In this document: positions 31,014 to 34,539 of the stretch, one piece after another
Numbering within the stretch: position 1 is the stretch's first letter
Layout of the letters: each line of letters begins with the position of its first letter
Source: an uncultured Pelagibacteraceae bacterium
Lineage (GTDB): Bacteria > Pseudomonadota > Alphaproteobacteria > Pelagibacterales > Pelagibacteraceae
Assembly: GCA_902515355.1 (NCBI GenBank)
Contig: CABXUA010000003.1
Location: 24,937 to 88,936, forward strand
DNA length: 64,000 nucleotides
Direction: 5' to 3'
Translations under genes and position numbers: made by a program
Notes under the pieces: generated by a model
Databases searched by the model: none
Seen by the model: only the letters and a program-made list of their open reading frames with translations
Told to the model about the DNA's origin: nothing

Positions 31014-31862
31014 ATGAAAATAAAAATTAAATCTTATTGTAAAATCAATCTTTTTCTTAATATTTTAAAAAAACTCAAAGTAGGTTTGCATGATATTCAG
31101 ACTTATACTTCTCAGCTAGATTTACATGATGATATTAAAATATCAGAAACTAAAAAAAGAAAAGATATTATCATTTTCAAAGGTAAGTTTAAAAATTTAG
31201 TGAATAGCTCTAAAAATTCAGTTTTAGACACTCTTTCAGTTTTAAGATCCAGAAAATTAATAAATTCAAAAAAAAATTATAGAATAATAATTGAAAAAAG
31301 AATTCCTGTATTTTCAGGTTTAGGTGGCGGCTCAAGTAATGCAGCTTATATAGCTAAATATTTTACAAAAAATAATATGAAGCAATCTGATATAAGATTT
31401 TTCAAAAATAAAATTGGAACAGATTTTAGCCTTTTTTTTAATAAACAAATATTTGTTAAAAATTTAAAGAATATTAAAAAACATAAAATCAATTTTACTT
31501 TAAACTTTGTTTTAGTATACCCTTATTTTAAATGTTCAACAAAAAAAATATACTCTCAAGTCAAAGATTTTTCACCTTATTCGAATATCAATTTTTCCAA
31601 AATAAAAACAAAAAATAAGTTTATAAATATAATCAGAAAAGAAAGAAATGAATTAGAGGTTATAGTTAAAAATAGATTTAATGAGCTTAATAAAATTTTA
31701 AATTTCATCTCTATTCAGAGAGAATGTTACCTATCAAGAATGACAGGGTCCGGCTCTGTTTGTTACGGAATTTTTAAAAGTGAAAAGTCTGCTAAATTGG
31801 CACATAAAAGAATTAAAAAGAAATTCCCGAATTATTGGGCTGCGGTCTCAAAAACTATTTAA
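31014..31862 (+). CDS. ispE: 4-diphosphocytidyl-2-C-methyl-D-erythritol kinase
   Basis: KINLFLNILKKLKVGLHDIQT, IPVFSGLGGGSSNAA, MTGSGSVCYGIF (GHMP kinase). Confidence 0.93.
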   Translation: MKIKIKSYCKINLFLNILKKLKVGLHDIQTYTSQLDLHDDIKISETKKRKDIIIFKGKFKNLVNSSKNSVLDTLSVLRSRKLINSKKNYRIIIEKRIPVFSGLGGGSSNAAYIAKYFTKNNMKQSDIRFFKNKIGTDFSLFFNKQIFVKNLKNIKKHKINFTLNFVLVYPYFKCSTKKIYSQVKDFSPYSNINFSKIKTKNKFINIIRKERNELEVIVKNRFNELNKILNFISIQRECYLSRMTGSGSVCYGIFKSEKSAKLAHKRIKKKFPNYWAAVSKTI

Positions 31863-31897
31863 TTAATCAAATTTATGATATATCAAATCGATAATGT

Positions 31898-31971
31898 TGG
31901 GGCATAGCCAAGCGGTAAGGCAGTGGTTTTTGGTACCACCATCCTAGGTTCGAATCCTAGTGCCCCAGCCA
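31898..31971 (+). tRNA. tRNA-Gln (anticodon TTG), CCA encoded
   Basis: tggggcatagccaagcggtaaggcagtggtttttggtaccaccatcctaggttcgaatcctagtgccccagcca; 7-bp acceptor TGGGGCA/TGCCCCA; anticodon loop ttTTGgt. Confidence 0.97.
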
Positions 31972-31976
31972 GAAAA

Positions 31977-33272
31977 ATGAATAAAATATCTTTTAACAAT
32001 AATTTAATCAAAAAAATAAAAAATTTTTTTTTCCCTTTCTACAAGACCGAAGAAATCTCAAAAATTTTTGATATTCTTTACAAGAATCATTCTCAAGATG
32101 AAAAGATAGCAATGTTTGTAGGTGGTTGTGTTAGAAATTTTATTTTAGATGAAAAAATAGATGATATTGACATAGCAACAGTTTTTACTCCAACTGAAAT
32201 TAAAGAAAAATTTAAAAACACCGATATCAAGGTGATAGATACAGGAGTTGAACACGGTTCTGTAACGCTTATCTTAAATCAATCTAAATTTGAAATTACA
32301 ACGTTGAGAAAAGATATCAAAACAGACGGTAGACATGCAGAGATTTCTTTTACGGATAACTGGAAAGATGACTCCGAGAGAAGAGATTTTACAATTAACG
32401 CAATTTACTTAGATAGAAAAGGAAACTTTTTTGACCCTCAATTGGGAGTAGAAGATTTAAAAAACAACACTGTAAAATTTATCGGTGATCCAAGTAAAAG
32501 AATAGAGGAGGATTATTTAAGAATAATAAGATTTATAAGATTCGCATTAAAGTATAGCCATAAAAATTTTGAACCTTCTACTATTCAGGCACTCAAATTG
32601 AATTTGATCGGAATAAAGAACATTTCCAAAGAGAGAATTCTCCAAGAACTTATAAAAATTATATCTCTTAAAAATTTTAGAGATATTCTTAATAAAAAAG
32701 AATTAAAAGACATTTTTTCTCAAATTTTTCCAGAATTTAAAAATCTAATTCGTTTAAATAAAGTAACTTTTTTACCGAAAGAAGAATTTGAAAAATTAAA
32801 TACCAATATGCTTTTAGCTTTAATGCTTATAGATGAAAAAAATAATCATGAATATTTTTGCCACAAGTATAAAGTTTCAAATCAAATTCAAGACTATCTA
32901 GATAATTTACACAAAAATCTTAAAGAATATAAAATATCAAAAAATTATTTTAAAAAAGATCTGAAAAAAAATATTTATTTTATAGGTAAAAATGAGATTA
33001 AAGATCTAGCAATTCTGATTTTTTTTATAAACAAAAATCTAAATTATAGAGATTTAAAAAAATTGATAGATGATATAGAAAAGACAACTATTCCAAAATT
33101 TCCCTATGATGGTAAGTTTTTAATAGACAAAGGTTTTTCGGAAGGAAAAAAAATTGGTTTGATTTTGAAAAAACTAGAAAAAAATTGGGTAGAAAATAAT
33201 TATAAATTGACCGAAAAAGATATTTCTTCAATTATTGAAAAAGAGAGTAAATCAAATGTATTCAACGCTTAA
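31977..33272 (+). CDS. cca: CCA tRNA nucleotidyltransferase / poly(A) polymerase family
   Basis: MFVGGCVRNFILDEKIDDIDIAT, RRDFTINAIYLDRKGNFFDPQLGVEDL, RIEEDYLRIIRFIRFALKYS. ORF-track start at 31923 lies inside the tRNA; ATG at 31977 preferred. Confidence 0.94.
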   Translation: MNKISFNNNLIKKIKNFFFPFYKTEEISKIFDILYKNHSQDEKIAMFVGGCVRNFILDEKIDDIDIATVFTPTEIKEKFKNTDIKVIDTGVEHGSVTLILNQSKFEITTLRKDIKTDGRHAEISFTDNWKDDSERRDFTINAIYLDRKGNFFDPQLGVEDLKNNTVKFIGDPSKRIEEDYLRIIRFIRFALKYSHKNFEPSTIQALKLNLIGIKNISKERILQELIKIISLKNFRDILNKKELKDIFSQIFPEFKNLIRLNKVTFLPKEEFEKLNTNMLLALMLIDEKNNHEYFCHKYKVSNQIQDYLDNLHKNLKEYKISKNYFKKDLKKNIYFIGKNEIKDLAILIFFINKNLNYRDLKKLIDDIEKTTIPKFPYDGKFLIDKGFSEGKKIGLILKKLEKNWVENNYKLTEKDISSIIEKESKSNVFNA

Positions 33273-33728
33273 AATTTCAAAGTTTCTTTCACCAGAGGGA
33301 GTTTTTACTGAAACCAAATCCTCAATTTTTTTTCCTATCAAGGCTTTACCTATTGGTGATTGAAAATAAATAAGATTTTTTGAAGCATCAGCTTCATCTT
33401 GACCAACAATTTTATATTTAATTTTCTGATCAGTTTCTAAATCTTTCAGATTTACTGTTGACCCAAAAACAACATTTCCATTATTTTCTATTTTAGTAAC
33501 ATCTATAACATTAGCTCTAGCAATAATATCGTTGATCGCTATAACTCTACTTTCCATTTGTGCTTGCTGTTCTTTGGCTGCATGATATTCAGCATTTTCT
33601 TTGAGATCACCATGAGACCTTGCCTCAGCTATCGCAGAAACTATTTTAGGTCTTTTAATATTTTTTAATTCTTCTAATTCTGCTTTTAGTTTTTTTAATC
33701 CTGAAATAGTTATAGGTTCTTTTTCCAT
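33252..33728 (-). CDS. greA: Transcription elongation factor GreA
   Basis: MEKEPITISGLKKLKAELEELKNIKRPKIVSAIAEARSHGDLKENAEYHAAKEQQ; ORF track over-extends to 33788 into hemF. Confidence 0.95.
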   Translation of the reverse strand: MEKEPITISGLKKLKAELEELKNIKRPKIVSAIAEARSHGDLKENAEYHAAKEQQAQMESRVIAINDIIARANVIDVTKIENNGNVVFGSTVNLKDLETDQKIKYKIVGQDEADASKNLIYFQSPIGKALIGKKIEDLVSVKTPSGERNFEILSVEYI

Positions 33729-33729
33729 A

Positions 33730-34539
33730 TTATTTCCATTTTGGCGAAGGAGGTAAGGATACCAATATAGCATTTGGATTTCCTCCACTATTTAAACCAA
33801 ATTTTGTACCTCGGTCGTAAAGTAAATTAAACTCTACATACCTTCCTCTTTTATAAGCTTGGATTTTTTTTTGTTTTTTTGACCATTTTGAAAACATTTT
33901 TTTACTTATTACCTCATGAATAATTTCATTAAACACATATCCCGCATGTTTAACAAATAAAAAATCTTTTTCCCAATTGTTCATTTTATAATCAAAGAAT
34001 ATACCACCGATTCCGCGTGGTTCATTTCTATGCGGTAAAAAAAAATATTCATCACACCATTTTTTATATTTAGTGTAATACTCTTTATTATGAAGATCAC
34101 ACATTTTTTTTAATTTTTCATGGAAAAAATTTTTCTCTTTTTCGTCTTTTAAACACGGAGTTAAATCTATGCCACCTCCAAACCAGTTTTTTTTGGTGCA
34201 AATAAATCTTGTATTAAAATGAATAGCAGGGACTTTAGGATTTTTTGGATGAAGAATAACAGATACTCCTGAAGACCAAAAATTCCTATTATTATTTGAT
34301 CCTGGTATTTTCTTAGAAAATTTTTTTGGAAATTTTCCTACTACATTAGAAAAAGCTACACCACCTTTTTCTATAACTCTACCTTTTATCACTCTGTACT
34401 CTCCAAATTTCCACTTATTGATTTTAAATTTTTCATTTGAGCCAAAATCTTTTTCTAATTGCTCAATATTTTTGCATACTATATTTTGTAAATTAATAAA
34501 CCACTTTTTAACAATTTCTTGTTTTTTTTTAATTTTCAT
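33730..34539 (-). CDS. hemF: Coproporphyrinogen III oxidase, aerobic
   Basis: VSVILHPKNPKVPAIHFNTRFI, WFGGGIDLTPCL, RGIGGIFFDY, RYVEFNLLYDRGTKFGLNSGGNPNAILVSLPP. Confidence 0.96.
   Translation of the reverse strand: MKIKKKQEIVKKWFINLQNIVCKNIEQLEKDFGSNEKFKINKWKFGEYRVIKGRVIEKGGVAFSNVVGKFPKKFSKKIPGSNNNRNFWSSGVSVILHPKNPKVPAIHFNTRFICTKKNWFGGGIDLTPCLKDEKEKNFFHEKLKKMCDLHNKEYYTKYKKWCDEYFFLPHRNEPRGIGGIFFDYKMNNWEKDFLFVKHAGYVFNEIIHEVISKKMFSKWSKKQKKIQAYKRGRYVEFNLLYDRGTKFGLNSGGNPNAILVSLPPSPKWK

Follow-up and report, generated by a model that had tools for sequence, protein, structure and literature searches.

The gene for the CCA-adding enzyme (cca) of this SAR11 genome starts only a few bases behind the encoded CCA of a tRNA-Gln gene on the same strand. 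SAR11 are ocean bacteria with tiny genomes, and the window is placed among them by its cca protein, which matches that of uncultured Pelagibacteraceae bacterium isolate AG-916-G03 at 100% identity along the entire length. The locus raises the question of how a gene is transcribed and translated when nearly everything in front of its start codon is a tRNA, and whether the joint ties this particular enzyme to tRNA maturation. The window denotes the whole stretch of 64,000 nt that was analysed, and all coordinates refer to it unless stated otherwise. The parts of the locus are as follows.

31014..31862, plus strand: ispE, 4-diphosphocytidyl-2-C-methyl-D-erythritol kinase (NCBIfam TIGR00154, E 9e-33)
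31873..31885, plus strand: promoter-like box TTATGATATATCA, recognised by its conservation among genus loci
31898..31971, plus strand: tRNA-Gln(UUG) with encoded CCA (ARAGORN; Rfam RF00005, 62.9 bits)
31972..31976, plus strand: GAAAA spacer, all sequence between the tRNA-Gln CCA and the cca ATG
31977..33272, plus strand: cca, 431 aa, ATG at 31977-31979 (Pfam PF01743 and PF12627; NCBIfam NF009814)
33252..33788, minus strand: greA, convergent neighbour of cca (NCBIfam GreA model, E 1e-64)

The tRNA end at 31971, the following GAAAA and the ATG at 31977 had been read directly from the letters in the initial annotation and were confirmed by the sequence, ARAGORN and Rfam. The acceptor stem pairs TGGGGCA with TGCCCCA, the discriminator G is position 31968 and the CCA occupies 31969-31971. 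The same-strand upstream neighbour is ispE, whose stop codon lies 35 nt from the tRNA. At the other end the unit is closed by greA. greA runs towards cca, and the two genes share 21 nt at their 3’ ends (33252-33272).

The cca product contains a PolyA_pol domain (Pfam PF01743, E 2e-29) as well as PF12627 (E 1.6e-7), and the stretches VGGCVRNFIL and DDIDIAT represent the head-domain motifs VGGxVR and DID. Judged by these signatures it is a class II CCA-adding/poly(A) polymerase-type nucleotidyltransferase. The best NCBIfam match is CCA tRNA nucleotidyltransferase (NF009814) with an E-value of 2e-58 that stays under the curated cut-off; the PcnB model matches more weakly (NCBIfam, E 6e-34).

The start codon was evaluated by comparison with relatives. 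Codons 1-40 show a pN/pS of 0.26 (319 pairs of relatives) and the FFPFYK motif is conserved. This pattern indicates purifying selection on the N-terminal 40 codons, and ATG 31977 can securely be taken as the true start. Two other starts have next to no chance of being used. The frame stays open back to a GTG at 31923 within the tRNA in the genome itself, but relatives have the tRNA in another frame or, in several cases, a stop codon between tRNA and ATG. An in-frame ATG about 45 codons downstream stands before the VGG motif, but this Met is Arg in several relatives and the codons in front of it are conserved as protein. Both candidates were rejected on these comparative data, because of the intervening stops, the conserved first 40 codons and the non-conserved next Met. 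A true start further downstream, which the initial annotation had named as a refuting result, was looked for and did not turn up. In genome G009 (locus L069) cca lies in two pieces with several stop codons while the joint to the tRNA is intact, which may reflect a pseudogene or an assembly error.

A protein search of 150 relatives yielded junction DNA for 90 loci. All 69 loci of the same genus with upstream DNA carry tRNA-Gln(UUG) directly before cca, with cca proteins mostly 50-66% identical to the one studied here. The gap between CCA and ATG measures 5-7 nt in 65 of these 69 junctions: 5 nt in 21 and in one further ATGATG case, 6 nt in eight and 7 nt in 35. Three others have gaps of 11-12 nt and the last is a broken cca frame. 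Since 5, 6 and 7 nt cover all three frames, the spacing is not accounted for by a need to keep tRNA and cca in one frame. The arrangement extends to two other genera of the family, with gaps of 6 nt (G235) and 3 nt (G338), both of them genomes in a single contig; ispE is found upstream of the tRNA in both, and greA, hemF and trmL are neighbours in G338. Given that 69 of 69 genus junctions share it, the arrangement is not due to chance. Conservation of the spacing, for which the initial annotation had asked, is thereby established for the genus and two further genera, and a close relative lacking the joint was sought among the genus loci to no avail.

Outside the family the picture differs. Upstream of cca, the stretch examined contains no tRNA in any of 20 loci from the sister family and other families. 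The sister family f2 has ispE followed by tRNA-Gln, then a gene of 183-184 aa lying 9-15 nt behind the tRNA and further genes; cca comes 3.6-4.0 kb downstream, on the same strand. The gene behind the tRNA is AhpD-like according to our own reading of its sequence. As f2 has ispE and tRNA-Gln with another gene behind, ispE/tRNA-Gln is, on this comparison, the older neighbourhood. Most likely cca came to adjoin the tRNA by loss of the intervening genes. Whatever gene stands behind tRNA-Gln in these gene orders, its leader there is short.

The intergenic gap between ispE and tRNA-Gln spans 33-37 nt in all 65 measurable genus loci. Most of its columns are variable except for the TTATGATATATCA block: 62 of the 69 genus loci agree with it at 12 or 13 of its 13 bases, and it usually sits 10-14 nt upstream of the tRNA. 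The palindromic core of the block, TGATATATCA, has a second copy at 1957-1966, which makes two in the 64-kb window compared to 0.11 expected. From conservation alone we read the TATGAT within TTATGATATATCA as a -10 element and the box as the probable promoter of the tRNA-Gln/cca unit. A scan with a strict sigma-70 consensus (31780-32080) returned no site, the box included. At the junction of tRNA and cca, where 5 nt are available, the scans detected neither a terminator-like nor a promoter-like site. Because 5 nt leave no room for either element and the conserved box stands upstream of the tRNA, we infer with high confidence that tRNA-Gln and cca share one transcript. A separate cca promoter is excluded at this spacing, by lack of space only. 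It is very improbable that a promoter hidden within the tRNA gene supplies cca with its own transcript: all that points to it is a weak resemblance to TAnnnT in the universal T-arm, noted by reading the sequence, while the scan of 31780-32080 gave no promoter-like site, the letters of the gene are dictated by its function as a tRNA, and the conserved box lies upstream of it.

Translation of such a transcript was addressed by motif counts and computed folding. The initial annotation had pointed out that a ribosome-binding site would have to lie in the acceptor/T-arm of the tRNA. It is right that the bases before the start are tRNA; however, the absence of a Shine-Dalgarno (SD) motif is not special. 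In the window SD-like motifs precede 16% of the starts and 13% of internal ATGs, and since they are no commoner at starts the missing motif before cca is ordinary. With the tRNA attached, opening the region from -15 to +15 is computed to require 11.7 kcal/mol compared to a median of 5.8 kcal/mol, making the cca start the second hardest to open of 58 window genes. This low predicted accessibility speaks for the earlier proposal that the tRNA fold occludes initiation. Once the tRNA is removed, the released 5’ end is computed to be weakly structured. The accessibility predictions agree with translation after cutting, without proving it.

The joint is not confined to cca. In the same genome tRNA-His is followed by hisS, the gene of the synthetase that charges it, after 4 nt (L096:129-1493, C12), tRNA-Leu(UAG) by tig, encoding trigger factor, after 6 nt (L106:163-1491, C1), tRNA-Thr by a glycosyltransferase gene after 7 nt and tRNA-Arg by an ORF of 395 aa without family match after 5 nt. 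The gap between tRNA-His and hisS is 3-5 nt in 30 genus genomes and exactly 4 nt in 27 of them, and that between tRNA-Leu and tig is 5-12 nt in 28 of 29 genus genomes and 34 nt in the remaining one. With the same tight joint conserved for other tRNA-gene pairs, it appears as a general habit of this streamlined SAR11 lineage and not as control specific to cca. At the hisS joint, SD-like motifs (AGGAG, AAAGGAC or AGGGAT) are seen directly before tRNA-His. Between tRNA-Asp and a nuoA-looking gene GATAATCATTTTC is conserved (two loci, L094 and L123) and looks Fur-box-like by eye. In the sister family an invariant CTTATGCAGCTGTA follows tRNA-Phe with no ORF behind it (seven loci), possibly an unrecognised conserved element.

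The distances from tRNA 3’ ends were collected for 210 distinct genus tRNA genes, a sample in which Gln, His and Leu are over-represented because they had been searched for. Same-strand starts lie mostly 4-7 nt from the tRNA and none is closer than 3 nt; the single apparent gap of 2 nt is an ATGATG and thus 5 nt. In contrast, of 21 genes that converge on a tRNA, 9 have their end 0-2 nt away from it. This floor of 3 nt for starts, compared to convergent stops reaching 0 nt, suggests that the short spacer between CCA and AUG is maintained by some constraint and is not a mere remnant. The pattern of T-arm, CCA, 3-8 nt and ATG was also counted. It is present in 91 of 91 genus genomes and in 189 of 241 genomes of the class, where most of the inspected loci open into no long frame. 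As chance ATGs are common in AT-rich DNA, the raw counts were left out of the evidence, and a junction counted only if a long ORF followed.

If the transcript is cut behind the tRNA, the question is by which enzyme. All 13 genomes tested contain RNase E/G. A search for RNase PH came up empty in eight genus genomes, five of them more than 90% complete, and in G338, whereas G235 and the sister family have the enzyme; this main tRNA 3’ trimming exonuclease has possibly been lost in the genus. The RNase Z model gave hits under its cut-off in the genomes searched; two such hits in the genus were rejected as RNase Z and belong to another metallo-hydrolase family. Because RNase E/G is kept, RNase PH was not found in the genus and the RNase Z hits stayed under the cut-off, an RNase E/G-type cut in the A/U-rich spacer would be most likely. 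For Propionibacterium acnes, PMC3848588 reports mapped endonucleolytic cuts that fall a few nucleotides after tRNAs with an encoded CCA. CCA is encoded in 208 of the 210 genus tRNAs, tRNA-Gln among them, and for this reason the CCA enzyme would here mainly be a repair enzyme. The tRNA-Thr(UGU) of two relatives ends in ACCG, hence CCG in place of CCA (L117 and L118, 1501-1575), and its 3’ A must therefore be added after transcription.

Taken together, we consider it probable, if well short of assured, that the locus works by punctuation of one transcript. tRNA-Gln and cca would form a single transcription unit with its promoter in the 35-nt gap behind ispE, and the 5’ leader of cca would consist almost wholly of the tRNA. 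On its 5’ side the tRNA would be trimmed by RNase P; on its 3’ side it would be freed by a cut in the few A/U-rich bases that follow the CCA, for which an RNase E/G-type endonuclease is the most likely candidate. The cca mRNA left behind would have a leader of 0-5 nt and would be translated without SD in a leaderless or near-leaderless fashion.

Another explanation, to which we give a modest chance, is that the short gap is a mere by-product of streamlining. Here cca would be translated from uncut RNA and tRNA maturation would have no influence on it; ribosomes might even initiate while the RNA is still being made, when the tRNA is neither folded nor cut out. The median gap between same-strand genes is 0 in the window, and compaction could alone give short gaps; the median intergenic length of 3 nt in Cand. 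P. ubique (PMC2704228) counts in the same direction. With SD motifs at background level, moreover, any A/U-rich start may suffice. However, the 74 nt upstream fold into a tRNA that needs excision and that makes the start region costly to open. That starts stay at least 3 nt away while convergent stops come as close as 0 nt, together with the nearly fixed 4-nt gap of hisS, suggests that the length of the spacer matters.

The initial annotation had gone further and proposed that the level of the CCA enzyme is specially coupled to tRNA 3’ maturation, tRNA 3’ ends being the substrate of this enzyme. Conservation of the joint in three genera of the family fits such a dedicated circuit, and the CCG-encoded tRNA-Thr gives the enzyme a biosynthetic job in two relatives. 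We nevertheless regard it as quite improbable and did not retain this claim: the joint also serves hisS, tig and others, among them genes that have nothing to do with tRNA ends, tRNA-Gln of the sister family is followed by an unrelated gene with cca about 4 kb further on, and tRNA-Gln encodes its own CCA, as do nearly all tRNAs seen. There is a slim chance of an autoregulatory use, with the attached tRNA acting as a cis switch: the CCA enzyme or HisRS would bind the tRNA of its own transcript and block cutting or translation. Both enzymes bind tRNA. If true, enzymes of tRNA metabolism would be autoregulated in a free-living bacterium with real tRNA genes as operators. What we favour remains the punctuated transcript, working as a joint of general use and not as a control circuit particular to cca.

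Several known systems share parts of this layout. The E. coli operon thrU-tyrU-glyT-thrT-tufB is a bacterial tRNA-mRNA operon which combines tRNAs and a protein gene in one transcript. Operons of this type have a leader with SD between tRNA and gene, whereas the SAR11 joint leaves 3-7 nt and no SD. Leaderless mRNAs of actinobacteria are translated with leaders of 0-10 nt and without SD, as is predicted for cca (PMC3848588, PMC4633059), but their 5’ ends arise by transcription initiation while those in SAR11 would come from tRNA processing. The tRNA-like operators of E. coli thrS and the yeast HisRS mRNA (PMC6542539) place a tRNA shape directly before the start of a tRNA-binding protein, and synthetases bind such elements of their own messages (PMC6542539). 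The SAR11 counterparts would be cca behind tRNA-Gln and hisS behind tRNA-His. In contrast to thrS-type operators, however, the SAR11 element is a real tRNA gene and genes without a tRNA-binding role share the joint, so that the likeness is one of arrangement alone.

A bacterial precedent for a near-leaderless mRNA generated by tRNA processing was not found in the open-access literature. If tRNA 3’ processing sets the mRNA 5’ ends of cca, hisS and trigger factor, tRNA maturation and mRNA supply would be tied genome-wide, a layout known mainly from mitochondria. The SAR11 joints would then be a natural test bed for bacterial translation start without leader or SD, and the genus also one for tRNA finishing in a lineage apparently without RNase PH.

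The closest likeness is the tRNA punctuation of animal mitochondria, where mRNAs are released by cutting out the flanking tRNAs. In both cases the start codon lies a few nucleotides after the tRNA and there is no room for a leader; the SAR11 message would, like the mitochondrial one, be leaderless or nearly so, with a 5’ end expected from tRNA 3’ processing. Unlike mitochondria, the SAR11 cell is free-living, has the usual bacterial operons and promoters and encodes CCA in its tRNAs; only some of its tRNA-gene pairs are joined in this way, and their cleavage is a prediction. With these differences in mind, the SAR11 joint is best read as a bacterial counterpart of mitochondrial tRNA punctuation.
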